From assembly GCA_902555465.1 (NCBI GenBank), contig CACDSN010000006.1:1-64000 (forward strand): a stretch of 64,000 nucleotides of DNA, read 5' to 3'. Below are positions 22,884 through 36,701 of the stretch, piece after piece. The stretch's first letter is position 1. Each line of letters begins with the position of its first letter. The notes under the pieces are model-generated. The model had not been told where the DNA came from. It made no database searches and worked only from the letters and a program-made list of their open reading frames with translations. A program made the position numbers and the translations under genes. Source of the DNA: an uncultured Pelagibacteraceae bacterium. Lineage in GTDB: Bacteria; Pseudomonadota; Alphaproteobacteria; Pelagibacterales; Pelagibacteraceae.

Positions 22884-23822
22884 ATGAATAAATTAAAAGG
22901 GTTATTATTAACAGAGGGATTACATGGAATGATAAGTCAGGTTGAGGGACTAGCAAAAGCACTTGATTTAGATTATTTTCACGAGAAAATTGAATTGAAT
23001 AATCCTTGGAACTTAGTGCCTCCTATATTTACACCAAAAAAAAAATTTATCTTCAGGAATCAAGTTAACCAAGAATATGATGTTATAATTTCTTGTGGAA
23101 GAAAAAGTGTAATTCCGTCTATCGTACTTAAAAAAAATTCAAACAAAAAAGTTATTAATATTCATATTCAAAATCCAAAAGTATCGCTTGAAAATTTTGA
23201 TATTGTTGTGGCCCCAGACCACGACAGTATAGATGGGCCAAATGTTTTAATTTCTAAAGGCGCTATTCATTATCTTACATTAGATGAAATTAACAAAGCA
23301 AAAGATTATCTGAAAGAAAAAATAGAAAATAAAAAAGATGTTATTACTCTTATTTTAGGAGGACCTACAAAATATTATAATTACGATAATGAAAACTTAA
23401 TTAATATCTTTTCAAAAATCAATAAACATATTCTTGAAAAGAATTTACAATTGATATTAATTCCCTCAAATCGAACACCAGAGAAAGCCATACAATTTGC
23501 AAAAGAGTATTTTAATAAAAATCGTTTAATAGTAGATAAGGTAGATAAGCAAGCTTATCTATCAAGTTTAGCTTTAGCCAAGTATATAATTGTTACATGC
23601 GATTCAAGCTCTATGATTTCCGAAGCTGCTCTTACTGGAAAACCTGTTTATGTCGCAATGTTTCCTGCAATAAGAAGTGATAAAAGATTTCAGAAATTTA
23701 GAAATTTATTAGAAAGTATGAAAATAATTAGAAAATTAGAAGAAGATTTAGATACTTGGAGCTATGAAAAATTAGATGAAACAAATAGAATAGCAAAAAA
23801 AATAAAGTCAAAATTATTTTAA
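22884..23822 (+). CDS. ELM1/GtrOC1-family protein, putative nucleoside-diphosphate-sugar-dependent enzyme
   Basis: The 312-residue protein starts LLLTEGLHGMISQVEGLAKAL and continues with NPWNLVPPIF, DVIISCGRKSVIPSIVLKK, HIQNPKV and FDIVVAPDHDSIDGPNVLISKGAIHYLT. These are the hallmarks of the ELM1 (mitochondrial fission protein) family of alphaproteobacteria and plants. The fold is glycosyltransferase-like, shown by LILGGPTKYYNYD and the C-terminal CDSSSMISEAALTGKPVYVA. No bacterial role is firmly established. The stop overlaps the ATG of a 2OG oxygenase (TAATG), so the two are translationally coupled and may share a pathway, possibly surface-glycan work; that is inference. Confidence 0.85.
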   Translation: MNKLKGLLLTEGLHGMISQVEGLAKALDLDYFHEKIELNNPWNLVPPIFTPKKKFIFRNQVNQEYDVIISCGRKSVIPSIVLKKNSNKKVINIHIQNPKVSLENFDIVVAPDHDSIDGPNVLISKGAIHYLTLDEINKAKDYLKEKIENKKDVITLILGGPTKYYNYDNENLINIFSKINKHILEKNLQLILIPSNRTPEKAIQFAKEYFNKNRLIVDKVDKQAYLSSLALAKYIIVTCDSSSMISEAALTGKPVYVAMFPAIRSDKRFQKFRNLLESMKIIRKLEEDLDTWSYEKLDETNRIAKKIKSKLF

Positions 23823-24484
23823 TGTCGTTCCTTAATTCAATAAATAATAATTCAAAAAAATTTACTAACCCTTTTGATCATTGGGAGTTAAATAAACCTT
23901 TAACAGAAGAGCAAATAAATGAAATTATCAACGCAGATATTGCAAATCCTTCTGATCATAATTTGAATTATGACGGAACAAGAGCAATTGACGGAGGAGA
24001 GGGAAATTTTAGACAAGGAATAGCCGGTGGCGGTAAAGCTTTAAAGTTTAGGTGTTTTGTTACAAAAGAAAATACAAATAACTTTCCATACTTAACAAAA
24101 TTTATTCAAGAACTTCAAAGTAAAGAAACCACTAATAGAGTTTCCGAATTAACAAGAAAAAACTTATCAAATTCTTATGTAAGAGTAGAGGTTATTTGTG
24201 ATCGACAAGGTTTTTGGTTAAAGCCCCACTGTGATATTAAAGAAAAATTAATGTCATGTTTGTTATTTGTAAATAAGCATAACGAAAGTGAGGATTTAGG
24301 AACTGATTTTTATGATAATAATCTAAAAAAAGTAAAAACACTTCCATATAAAGATAATTACGGTTATTTTTTTACAAGTGGACCCAATACATGGCATGGC
24401 ATGGAAAAGAAAGAAATAAAAAAAGAGCGAAGATGCCTTCAAGTGAATTATGTATCTTTTAAAACAGATTGGAAAGTTGATTAA
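23822..24484 (+). CDS. 2-oxoglutarate/Fe(II)-dependent oxygenase-like protein
   Basis: The 220-residue protein shows the iron-binding triad of the double-stranded beta-helix oxygenases: H and D in LKPHCDIKEK, and a distal H in NTWHGME. A following Arg (RRCLQVNYVSF) could bind the 2-oxoglutarate carboxylate. The N-terminal half contains DGTRAIDGGEGNFRQGIAGGG, which I do not recognise. The substrate is unknown; 2OG oxygenases act on amino acids, proteins, lipids or sugars. It is coupled to the ELM1-like gene by a TAATG junction. Its stop overlaps the end of a tiny convergent ORF. Confidence 0.75.
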   Translation: MSFLNSINNNSKKFTNPFDHWELNKPLTEEQINEIINADIANPSDHNLNYDGTRAIDGGEGNFRQGIAGGGKALKFRCFVTKENTNNFPYLTKFIQELQSKETTNRVSELTRKNLSNSYVRVEVICDRQGFWLKPHCDIKEKLMSCLLFVNKHNESEDLGTDFYDNNLKKVKTLPYKDNYGYFFTSGPNTWHGMEKKEIKKERRCLQVNYVSFKTDWKVD

Positions 24485-24585
24485 TTAGCTGAATTTAAAA
24501 GTCTAAATAATGATGCGATAATCCCATGACCAGATAATTCAATTGCTATGATAATTACTATAAATAAAAGTATTTTTTTGTTCAT
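24481..24585 (-). CDS. Tiny predicted membrane protein, 34 residues (micro-ORF A)
   Basis: Reading the minus strand from the ATG at 24583-24585 gives a 34-residue peptide, MNKKILLFIVIIIAIELSGH then GIIASLFRLLNSAN. It would form one membrane helix with a Glu and a His near its centre. Its ATG overlaps the TGA of micro-ORF B as ATGA, a classic coupling signal, and its stop overlaps the convergent oxygenase stop. Placement after carB-MOSC-ORF B suggests it is the last gene of that transcript. I do not recognise a family. In A+T-rich DNA a short ORF can occur by chance, so this is tentative. Confidence 0.45.
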   Translation of the reverse strand: MNKKILLFIVIIIAIELSGHGIIASLFRLLNSAN

Positions 24586-24707
24586 TTAATTAAAATAAAT
24601 AATATTAACACCACCCAAAAGAAACCATAATAATAGTAAATATATTTTTTAGCAAACATTCTTGGTACGCTTTGAGTTTCTTTCGTTCTTTTCTTTTTTT
24701 GTTTCAT
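24582..24707 (-). CDS. Tiny predicted membrane protein, 41 residues (micro-ORF B)
   Basis: The ATG at 24705-24707 lies 8 bases after the MOSC gene's stop. The 41-residue product has a very basic start (MKQKKKRTKETQSVPRMFAK), then KYIYYYYGFFWVVLILFILIK, one membrane helix with an aromatic cluster at the cytoplasmic boundary. The positive-inside rule predicts the N terminus in the cytoplasm. The stop overlaps the start of micro-ORF A by four bases. The basic-tail-plus-single-helix design is seen in small subunits of membrane complexes, but I cannot assign one. Without this ORF pair, the 231 bases between the neighbouring genes would be one of the larger spacers in the window. Confidence 0.5.
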   Translation of the reverse strand: MKQKKKRTKETQSVPRMFAKKYIYYYYGFFWVVLILFILIK

Positions 24708-24715
24708 GATAAATC

Positions 24716-25162
24716 TTATGTTGAGATGGTTATTTTGTCTCCAATATTTATTGTCCCAGAGGAAAGAATTTCACATCTTAAACCACCTCTTCTTAAAAAC
24801 TCCTTAATAATATTATCTTTTCCAAGTCTATTTTGTAAATTATTACAAGGTCTACATAAATCATTAACTTTTAATTTAATTTCTCCAATAGTAATTGTTT
24901 TACCAACCAAATCATTCAATTGAATATTTTTTGTGACTATATTTCTTCTAAATTCCAAATAAGTAAATTTCGTATTAAAAGTATTATTGTAATAATCTAT
25001 ATTTTCACTCTCTATAAGAGTAATTTGTTCTCTATCTCCGTTGAAATCATGAAAATATCTATCACCAACAATACCTTTAGAGGCAACTACTTCGATGCTT
25101 TCTTTTTTTTCTATTTCTTGATTATTCTTTTTGGTAATTCCAATCTCGTAGACGACAGACAT
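24716..25162 (-). CDS. MOSC domain-containing protein
   Basis: This 148-residue protein consists almost entirely of a MOSC domain, found in molybdenum-cofactor sulfurases and in mARC/YiiM-type proteins. Visible signatures are KGIVGDRYFHDFNGDREQITLIE, LEFRRNIVTKNI and the Cys pair in DLCRPCNNL, followed by GGLRCEILSSGTINIGDKI. MOSC proteins are thought to handle sulfur carried on a conserved Cys or to bind Mo cofactor. It starts one base inside the carB stop (TAATG), so it is cotranslated with carB. Its exact substrate is unknown. Confidence 0.88.
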   Translation of the reverse strand: MSVVYEIGITKKNNQEIEKKESIEVVASKGIVGDRYFHDFNGDREQITLIESENIDYYNNTFNTKFTYLEFRRNIVTKNIQLNDLVGKTITIGEIKLKVNDLCRPCNNLQNRLGKDNIIKEFLRRGGLRCEILSSGTINIGDKITIST

Positions 25163-28100
25163 TAATTATCCTGTAGTGATTTTACTGTTAGCTTTTTTGT
25201 TTTAAGAGATTTAATTGCGTCTAAAAAAGCATAGGCAGTTGACATATTTGTACAATATGGAACTTTATTAATAAGTGTTGCTCTTCTAATAGCTCTTGCA
25301 TCACTAACCCTATATTTTTTGTCTCCACCACCAGTATTAATTACTAAAGAGATTTTATTCGAATTTAATACATCAACTATATTTGAACCACCTGAGCTTA
25401 ATTTATTTATTGTTTTACATTTCATTCCATTTTCTTTAATTGTATCAGAAGTACCTTTAGTACCTGATAAAGAAAATCCAAGTTTAGATAATCTTTGTGC
25501 TATTCCAATAATTTCTTGTTTGTGAGTATCTTTAACCGACAAAAAAGCTAATCCACTTGTTGGTAAAGAGTTGGAGGCTGCAATTTGGCTTTTTGCAATA
25601 GCCATTCCAAAGTCATCATCAAAACCCATTACTTCACCAGTTGATTTCATTTCAGGACCAAGCAAAACATCGCTGTCTGGAAATTTATTAAATGGAAATA
25701 CTGCCTCTTTAACAGCATATCTTTTATTAGTTTTATATTTTAAATTATATTTTGATAAATTTTCACCAGCCATAATTCTTGATGCAATTTTTGCTAAAGA
25801 AATTCCATTTGCTTTTGATACAAATGGCACTGTTCTACTTGCTCTTGGGTTTACTTCTATAACAAAAACTTCATCTTTTTTTATAGCAAATTGAATGTTT
25901 AAAAATCCCTTAACTTTTAAAGCTAATGCAAGTTTTTTAGTTTGTATTTTTAACTCTTTTAATATTCCTTTTTTAATAGAAACAGGAGGAAGGCAGCAAG
26001 CAGAGTCTCCTGAATGAATTCCTGCCTCTTCTATATGTTGCATAATTCCTGCAATATAAACATCTTTGCCATCAGATATTGCATCAACATCTACTTCCAT
26101 TGCGTTATTTATAAATTTATCAATCAGTATTGGATTATCTTCAGAGGCTTTAAATGCTTCATTTATAAATTCTTTAAGTTGACTTTTGTCATGAACTATT
26201 TCCATAGCTCTTCCACCCAGCACATACGAAGGTCTTACTACTACCGGAAGACCAATATTTTCTGCTATTTTAATTGCCTGATCAAATTTGTAAGCAATTC
26301 CACTTTCAGCTTGTTTTAAATTTAATTTTATCAATAAATCTCTAAATTGATCTCTATCTTCAGCTAAATCAATAGAAGCATATTGCGTTCCTAAGATTGG
26401 TAATTTATTTTCATGTAAAAATTTAGATAGTTTGATAGGTGTTTGTCCTCCAAATTGAGCTATTATTCCAATGAGATTACCTTTTGATTTTTCTTTTAAA
26501 ATTATATTGTGAACATATTCCTCAATTAATGGTTCAAAATACAATCTATCACTCGTATCATAATCTGTTGAAACAGTTTCAGGATTACAATTCACCATTA
26601 TTGTCTCAAAACCTGCTTCCTTAAGTGAAAAACTTGCTTGGCAACAACAGTAATCAAACTCAATACCTTGACCAATTCTATTAGGTCCACCACCAAGGAT
26701 TATAACCTTTTTCTTATTGCTAGGACCTGCCTCACATTCTGTCTTTAAGGTGAGATTTCTCTGATAAGTCGAATACATATATGGTGTGAAAGATTTGAAC
26801 TCAGCAGCGCAAGTATCAACTTTTTTAAATACCGGAAAGACTTTAAGCGCAATTCTTTTTGATCTGATAACTTTTTCTTTTAATCCAGTAATTTTAGATA
26901 ATTTTTTATCAGAAAACCCTATAGATTTAATTCTATTAAATTCCTCAAAAGTTTTAGGAAGACCTTTTTTACTTATATTTATTTCCTCATCAACAAGCTC
27001 TTTGATTTGATTTAAAAACCAAGGATCAACTTTTGATAATTTATATATTTTATCTAAACTTATTTTTTTTCTAAATGCCTCTGCAATCAAAAGTAGTTTG
27101 TTTGGTACATTAATCTTTAATTGTTTTAAAATGTGATTTTTAGAAAAGTTAAAAATATTATCTAATCCAGATAATCCAGTTTCAAGAGATACCAGAGCTT
27201 TTTGAAATGATTCTTTGAAATTTCTTCCAATTGCCATTGCTTCACCAACCGATCTCATAGAGGTGCCTAAAATAGCTTTTGTGTCTGAGAATTTCTCAAA
27301 AGTAAATCTAGGTATTTTTGTTACAACATAATCAATTGTTGGCTCAAACGAGGCTGGTGTTGTTTTTGTAATTTCATTTTTCAATTCATCCAAAGTATAC
27401 CCAACAGCCAATTTTGCAGCAACTTTAGCAATTGGAAAACCAGTTGCCTTAGATGCTAATGCTGAAGATCTTGAAACTCTTGGGTTCATTTCAATTATGA
27501 CCATTCTTCCATTTTTTGGATTAATGGCGAACTGAACATTTGAACCGCCAGTCTCTACACCAATTTTTCTTAAACATGCAATAGATGCGTTTCTCATTAC
27601 TTGATATTCTTTATCTGTTAAAGTCAGAGCTGGAGCTATTGTAACCGAGTCCCCTGTATGAGTTCCCATTGGATCTATGTTTTCAATTGAACAAATTATT
27701 ATACAATTATCATTTTTATCTCTAATTACTTCCATTTCAAATTCTTTCCATCCATCAAGACACTCTTCCACAAGAACTTGGTTTTGTGGTGACTCGTACA
27801 TTCCTTCTTTAACAATTTTAAAAAAATCTTTTTTAGTTCTAGCTATCCCACCACCTAGACCTCCTAGAGTGAAGGATGGTCGTATTATTGCCGGCAATCC
27901 AATTTTTCTTAATGTTTGTTTTGCTTTTTTAAAGTTATTTAAAATTTCTGATTTAGGAAGATCAATTCCAATATCAGACATATTCTTTCTAAATTTTTTT
28001 CTATCCTCTGCGTTTTCTATTGCATTAGAATTTGCACCAATTAGTTCAATTTTAAATTTTTTTAGAAGTCCAATTTTTTCAGCTTTAATTGCTAAATTTA

Positions 28101-28386
28101 AAGCAGTTTGCCCTCCCATAGTTGGGAGAATTGCTTCTGGTTTTTCTTTTTTTATTATTTCTTCTAGAATCTCAATTGATATTGGCTCAATATAAGTTTT
28201 ATCAGCAACACCTGGATCAGTCATGATAGTTGCTGGGTTTGAATTAACTAATATAACTTTATAACCTTCATCTTTTAGTGCTTTGCACGCTTGTGTTCCG
28301 GAATAATCAAATTCACAAGCTTGTCCAATAATTATTGGACCTGCACCAATAACTAATATTTTTTTAATGTCTTTTCTTTTTGGCAT
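25162..28386 (-). CDS. carB: Carbamoyl-phosphate synthase large subunit
   Basis: CarB makes carbamoyl phosphate from ammonia (channelled from CarA), bicarbonate and two ATP, for arginine and pyrimidine synthesis. The 1074-residue protein has the two tandem ATP-grasp halves ([10 protein letters not shown] with [18 protein letters not shown], and [12 protein letters not shown] with [18 protein letters not shown]) and a C-terminal MGS-like regulatory domain ([10 protein letters not shown] and VINTGGGD). The Rossmann-like openings [20 protein letters not shown] and [20 protein letters not shown] are typical. It overlaps carA by 23 bases and MOSC by one. Confidence 0.99.
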
Positions 28387-36261: not shown

Positions 36262-36618
36262 TGCCAGATAAACGACTTATCGCATCAATTTAATGGTGAG
36301 GAAAGTCCGGGCTCTACAAAGACACAGTGCCAGTTAATGGCTGGCGGGGGCAACCCTAGGGATAGTGCCACAGAAAATAAACCGCCTCAACAAGGCAAGG
36401 GTGAAAAGGTGTGGTAAGAGCACACCGGTTGGTTGGTAACAATCAGCGCATGGAAAACCCCACTGAGAGCAAGACTGAGTAGAGATGACATTGTTAGAAA
36501 TAACTAAAAGCAGTCTTTGGCTAGTCATCAGGGTTAGTTGCTTGAGCCTTAAAGTGATTTAAGGCCTAGATAAATGATAAGTTTAAAGGACAGAACCCGG
36601 CTTATAGTTTATCTGGCA
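36262..36618 (+). ncRNA. rnpB: RNase P RNA (bacterial type A)
   Basis: The catalytic RNA of RNase P, about 357 bases, trims tRNA 5' leaders. Conserved blocks are present: GAGGAAAGTCCGGGCTC near the 5' end and ACAGAACCCGGCTTATAG near the 3' end, which form helix P4, plus AGAGCACACCGG and GAGCAAGACTGAGTAGA in the specificity domain. Ends are set by a 12-bp P1 helix: TGCCAGATAAAC pairs with GTTTATCTGGCA. It fills most of the otherwise gene-free stretch between the amidase and mraZ. No intrinsic terminator is evident. Confidence 0.97.
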
Positions 36619-36701
36619 TTCTTAAATTGATAATTCTTTAAAATCCAATTCGTTTCATTTTTGTTCTAATTTCTAAGCAATTTTTGTCAAATTATTTAGT
36701 A

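Follow-up and report, generated by a model that had tools for sequence, protein, structure and literature searches.

Gene organization of the locus

The window analysed here, a stretch of 64,000 nucleotides from an uncultured Pelagibacteraceae bacterium (contig CACDSN010000006.1, positions 1 to 64,000), carries two small overlapping open reading frames on its minus strand. ORF1 (nt 24582..24707), opened by an ATG codon, encodes a 41 aa microprotein, MKQKKKRTKETQSVPRMFAKKYIYYYYGFFWVVLILFILIK, having a Lys/Arg-rich N-terminus followed by one predicted transmembrane helix, KKYIYYYYGFFWVVLILFILIK, and assigned to family A1/A3. ORF2 (nt 24481..24585), also starting from ATG, encodes a 34 aa microprotein of family A2, MNKKILLFIVIIIAIELSGHGIIASLFRLLNSAN, composed of a hydrophobic helix, an invariant IE-x-SG-x-G break and an amphipathic second helix. 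The stop codon of ORF1 (TGA) and the start codon of ORF2 (ATG) share the four bases ATGA (nt 24582..24585, minus strand).

Upstream of ORF1, and co-directional with it, lies a gene for a MOSC-domain protein (nt 24716..25162, minus strand; Pfam MOSC, E=2e-15), whose stop is spaced from ORF1 by 8 bases (nt 24708-24715). It is preceded by carB (nt 25162..28386, minus strand), recognized from its translation as the large subunit of carbamoyl-phosphate synthase and found in the same order in locus L031, and by carA, so that carA, carB, MOSC, ORF1 and ORF2 form a single co-directional train nearly without gaps. On the other side, a convergent gene on the plus strand (nt 23822..24484) encodes a 2OG-Fe(II) oxygenase-like protein, whose match to Pfam 2OG-FeII_Oxy_3 is weak (E=2e-4) and falls short of the gathering score, and shares with ORF2 a 4-base stop-to-stop overlap (nt 24481-24484). 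An initial annotation of this DNA had described minus-strand ORFs of 41 and 34 codons, overlapping as ATGA, filling the gap between the MOSC and oxygenase genes with a geometry like that of the neighbouring genes; the sequence and the ORF list bear out this description.

When the MOSC/oxygenase gap was submitted to mononucleotide shuffling, an ATG-initiated ORF of at least 41 codons was obtained on this strand in 2% of the shuffles, so that in AT-rich DNA the layout alone is weak to modest evidence for genes; it becomes strong once the two frames are seen to be conserved (see below). A scan of the region for promoters and terminators was uninformative, returning 12 promoter-like sites versus 7.1 +/- 2.7 expected and no terminator, and no Rfam RNA family matched the ORF1/ORF2 region. 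Elsewhere in the window, a bacterial class A RNase P RNA was located at nt 36264-36620 of the plus strand (Rfam RF00010, 294.9 bits), and the minus-strand ORF overlying it (nt 36334-36528) is spurious.

Conservation of the reading frames

Related loci were retrieved by means of the MOSC neighbour gene. Both ORFs were found intact, and in the identical arrangement, in 8 close-relative loci, with pN/pS values over the nine sequences of 0.128 for ORF1 and 0.142 for ORF2. Variable sites fell mostly at third codon positions (6/6/20 at the three positions in ORF1, 11/2/21 in ORF2). When the window was compared with the seven relatives of equal length, the coding frame gave a pN/pS of 0.09 (ORF1) and 0.12 (ORF2), versus 0.17 for MOSC, and zero stops, while the remaining two frames of the same strand were interrupted by stops in both ORFs. 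One reverse frame shares its third positions with the coding frame and for that reason also showed a low ratio, yet it contained 4 stops per sequence in ORF1 or 1 in ORF2. The loss of frame and the premature stops that the initial annotation had named as evidence against genes were thus seen in none of the eight close relatives, and the comparison of synonymous with non-synonymous changes that it had proposed points to purifying selection on both ORFs (pN/pS ~0.13-0.14). As expected of genes for small membrane proteins, both ORFs are frames of fewer than 50 codons kept across species under purifying selection.

On these sequence comparisons, we regard it as virtually certain that ORF1 and ORF2 are real genes. 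A chance origin, or a non-coding element, could be entertained in view of the at least 41-codon ORFs arising in the shuffled AT-rich gap, but is contradicted by the codon-level conservation of both frames across the family and in several genomic contexts, and retains practically no probability.

Predicted structure of the microproteins

AlphaFold2 predicted a single helix in ORF1 (residues 14-40, with pLDDT of about 95 in residues 31-40), in agreement with its hydropathy, thus supporting a membrane-spanning segment. In the hydrophobic ORF2, two helices (residues 3-17 and 22-33; mean pLDDT 90) were predicted, broken at SGHG; being obtained for a single chain without a membrane, this model is compatible with a kinked transmembrane helix as well as with other arrangements. 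The single hydrophobic helix originally attributed to each protein is therefore retained for ORF1 and replaced by two helices in ORF2. Given the position of the break, the invariant E-x-S-G-x-G motif is the predicted site of the kink. The invariant residues of family A2 are indeed I15, E16, S18, G19 and G21, and those of the ORF1 family are K4, F18, K21, Y22, Y26, Y27, W31 and L34. According to the positive-inside rule, the Lys/Arg-rich N-terminus of ORF1 would be cytoplasmic (N-in).

Distribution and arrangement in Pelagibacterales

Among 298 Pelagibacterales genomes, 162 gave a profile hit for ORF1 and 201 for ORF2, nearly always in single copy; ORF2 was present in 100 of the 150 genomes of high quality. 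Both families run through the Pelagibacteraceae and are concentrated in the genus of the window; matches in the sister genus g8 were strong for ORF2 and weak for ORF1. A class-wide sample of 385 Alphaproteobacteria genomes yielded ORF2 in two only, both belonging to the window's genus, and no relative of either ORF was found in viral contigs. Searches of Pfam, NCBIfam, PHROGs and PDB gave no credible match, only sub-threshold noise, so the absence of a recognizable family noted from the bare sequence holds against these libraries. Likewise, the proposal that these are undescribed genes is favoured, since both frames are conserved through the Pelagibacteraceae and the families appear to be undescribed; an earlier listing among the unannotated coding regions of a 2009 Pelagibacter intergenic survey is possible (PMC2704228). 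Several near-complete genomes carry neither gene, indicating that neither is essential, and each ORF also occurs without the other; of two complete genomes, G106 (1,308,759 bp) lacks both and G107 (1,456,888 bp) has both.

In 105 of the 128 genomes in which both could be located, the ORFs were adjacent, on the same strand and always in the order ORF1-ORF2, and in 78 of these 105 pairs the hits abutted exactly in the ATGA register of the window. From these conserved overlaps we infer that the two ORFs are probably translationally coupled. The other 23 genomes carried them at non-adjacent positions. When both proteorhodopsin and PMT had been found (191 genomes), 137 genomes had both ORFs, 6 ORF1 only, 31 ORF2 only and 17 neither (p=1.7e-7). 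Co-occurrence and common location owe something to shared ancestry and linkage besides function.

The neighbourhoods of about 150 loci were surveyed, with genes named from Pfam; the loci are a non-random set, taken partly as best hits and partly by class. The largest class, of about 60 loci, shows DksA-ORF1-ORF2 convergent to GST. It is followed by PMT_2-ORF2-GT2 (29 loci), by ORF1 alone before agmatinase (27 loci), and by the arrangement of the window, MOSC-ORF1-ORF2-oxygenase (10 loci, plus 2 with carB directly upstream), while MOSC-ORF2 without ORF1 and PhyH-ORF1-ORF2-GST were each found in 4 loci. With locations varying to this extent, the pair has no stable operon partner.

Some further ORF1-like genes were encountered. 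A remote ORF1-like microprotein of 39-41 aa, perhaps a diverged offshoot of the family, is encoded after an aldehyde dehydrogenase gene in loci L028 and L279-L281, and in L279-L281 it precedes a gene for a multi-spanning protein resembling CcdA. Two sister-genus genomes (L282 and L283) show a further relocation, the ORF1-like gene being flanked there by an acetyl-CoA acetyltransferase-like gene on one side and an unidentified one on the other.

Proteorhodopsin neighbourhood and probable relocation of the pair

Of the 121 genomes with coordinates, 113 have ORF2 no more than 12 kb from proteorhodopsin, at a median distance of 2 kb; the proteorhodopsin-ferredoxin-reductase cluster has DksA, GST, PMT_2 and GT2 as its neighbours. 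Two sister-genus loci, L303 and L305, encode a homologue of ORF1 between proteorhodopsin and ferredoxin (of 45 and 43 aa, with moderate E values of 6e-4 and 5e-3, respectively); ORF2 is found there on the opposite side of proteorhodopsin, about 4-5 kb away. The genome of the window is an exception, with proteorhodopsin (C6:69646-70413) 45 kb from ORF1 and ORF2.

Empty sites were recognized at both junctions: in L041 and L054 the MOSC and oxygenase genes are directly joined, with no small ORFs between them, and relatives having the pair at the carB/MOSC-oxygenase junction, e.g., L262, L263 and L265, have DksA immediately next to GST. The pair of the window has therefore probably relocated to the MOSC/oxygenase junction, its present location being the derived one and the direction of movement being our reading of these sites. 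The trees of ORF1 and ORF2, built on 36-40 columns and poorly resolved, were used for their deepest split only, which they share and which places the window's lineage with genomes in which ORF1 and ORF2 have moved apart, to agmatinase and to PMT_2/GT2, and away from the DksA lineage. As the usual home of the pair is the proteorhodopsin neighbourhood, MOSC, carAB and the oxygenase gene would be incidental neighbours.

The order of genes at the SAR11 proteorhodopsin locus was already reported to vary, in conserved patterns, in a 2007 metagenomic study (PMC2217521), where the legend to Fig. 5 lists SMR, acyl-CoA synthetase, ferredoxin, thioredoxin-reductase-like, GST and DksA genes as neighbours. 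That locus shares neighbourhood genes with the home locus described here, and the two microproteins are not mentioned in the portion of that account consulted. An SMR gene (Pfam PF00893; L310:4201-4536) also lies near proteorhodopsin in the window's genome, as that study reports for HTCC1062, and the GST/DksA gap of the same genome (L310:9467-10711) holds, instead of ORF1-ORF2, an unidentified and probably membrane-bound protein of 414 aa. The PMT_2 gene of this genome, outside the window, is split between the end of contig C6 and the start of C21, suggesting that the two contigs probably adjoin.

Putative function

Our best explanation is that ORF1 and ORF2 act together as accessory membrane subunits, a proposal on which our judgement is evenly balanced, and in which membrane insertion, co-translation and joint action are all inferred from the data above. 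The idea behind it, already put forward in the initial annotation, that one-helix proteins of this size often are subunits of membrane complexes, is plausible. The two would be lineage-specific inner-membrane microproteins of SAR11, made from overlapping frames. ORF1 would span the membrane as a single N-in/C-out helix that carries a cationic tail on the cytoplasmic side and an aromatic belt, and ORF2 would insert as a helix with a kink, in which the invariant Glu and the small residues of E-x-S-G-x-G may pack against another helix. Together they would bind a larger inner-membrane protein and then stabilise or tune it, by analogy with CydX, AcrZ and KdpF. The home locus suggests that a candidate partner may be sought in the proteorhodopsin/ferredoxin/PMT-GT2 neighbourhood. 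Joint action is favoured by the occurrence of the pair at several junctions (DksA/GST, PhyH/GST, MOSC/oxygenase), by its family-wide, essentially single-copy retention in streamlined genomes, by the constant order and orientation of the two ORFs in 105 of 128 genomes, by their co-occurrence in the 191 genomes with proteorhodopsin and PMT and by the deep split common to both trees; against it stand the 23 genomes with the two ORFs apart, the occurrence of each ORF alone and the several near-complete genomes devoid of both.

Alternatively, the two could be real but functionally unrelated microproteins that came to share a locus through chance and common ancestry, as small genes settling at the ends of operons. 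The 23 genomes with the two ORFs apart are in line with this explanation, as are the loci where ORF1 stands by itself before agmatinase (27) or ORF2 by itself between PMT_2 and GT2 (29), and the concentration of SAR11 rearrangements at operon boundaries (PMC2217521). Order, strand and ATGA register are however alike in most genomes, and the pair recurs together at several unrelated junctions and tends to be present or absent jointly, so that we consider the absence of any functional relation rather unlikely, though the most serious competitor of joint action.

Proteorhodopsin is a lead for the partner, through proximity only. The two ORFs could be accessories of proteorhodopsin, or of the redox operon linked to it, and adjust or stabilise the light-driven pump, in accordance with the short distance of ORF2 from proteorhodopsin in 113 of 121 genomes (at most 12 kb) and with the ORF1 homologue placed between proteorhodopsin and ferredoxin in L303 and L305. 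The homology of the latter is nevertheless moderate (E about 6e-4 and 5e-3), proteorhodopsin is commoner (271 of 298 genomes) than ORF2 (201) or ORF1 (162), complete genomes with proteorhodopsin lack both ORFs, and in the window's genome 45 kb separate the pair from it. This role is accordingly held to be improbable, and a SAR11-specific heteromeric membrane module, binding and regulating proteorhodopsin or linked redox partners, is slightly less probable still.

A similarly low probability is given to an accessory role of ORF2 in the PMT_2/GT2 polyprenyl-phosphate-sugar pathway. Its position between the two genes in 29 loci, and the presence of PMT in 171 of the 173 genomes of the window's genus that carry ORF2 (association p=9e-9), would be in keeping with such a role. 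However, the PMT-negative genomes of this genus are all without GT2 too, and 10 of the 14 also lack proteorhodopsin, so that the region is probably unassembled in them and accounts for most of the association, which we have downgraded as a functional link. Moreover, two of the four PMT-negative genomes keeping proteorhodopsin have ORF2, whereas 23 genomes with both proteorhodopsin and PMT are without it. Hydropathy gives GT2 itself two transmembrane segments at the C-terminus, so that it needs no tether, and a DPM-like tether role of ORF2 was dropped. A supposed likeness between ORF2 and helix 1 of SMR/ArnE transporters was likewise put aside.

Small size, hydrophobicity, the cationic character of ORF1, patchy losses and shifting locations would also suit hydrophobic toxin-like or antimicrobial peptides in the style of type I toxins, which we consider very unlikely for genes that are essentially single-copy, under strong purifying selection, placed inside coding trains, and with neither a known-family RNA (Rfam) in the region nor phage copies.

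SAR11 bacteria rank with the most abundant cells on Earth, and their genomes are extremely streamlined; genes of 34 and 41 codons kept family-wide under strong selection in such genomes are thus likely to be important. The protein libraries checked fail to recognise them, and identifying the partner of ORF1 and ORF2 could bring to light a new component of membrane energetics in SAR11.

Comparison with known small membrane proteins

Judged on sequence, ORF1 and ORF2 are of a known kind, that of small membrane proteins such as CydX, AcrZ and KdpF, but their families match none of those tested. CydX, the small subunit of cytochrome bd oxidase, has 37 aa in E. coli (PMC4325964), and resembles ORF1 and ORF2 in its tiny size, hydrophobic helix, N-in topology, few conserved residues and position at the end of a coding train. 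It differs in having a YxxWxxGx15E/D motif and a stable cydAB partner operon: the motif is absent from the A2 and A3 alignments, no CydX-type profile in Pfam or NCBIfam matched either ORF, and cydAB is not among their identified neighbours. Regulators of the AcrZ/KdpF type, single-helix accessories binding a larger membrane protein (for AcrZ-AcrB, PMC7267776), have no sequence match with ORF1 or ORF2, next to which no transporter partner is found, and provide a working analogy for two microproteins that may bind and tune a larger protein of the SAR11 inner membrane.
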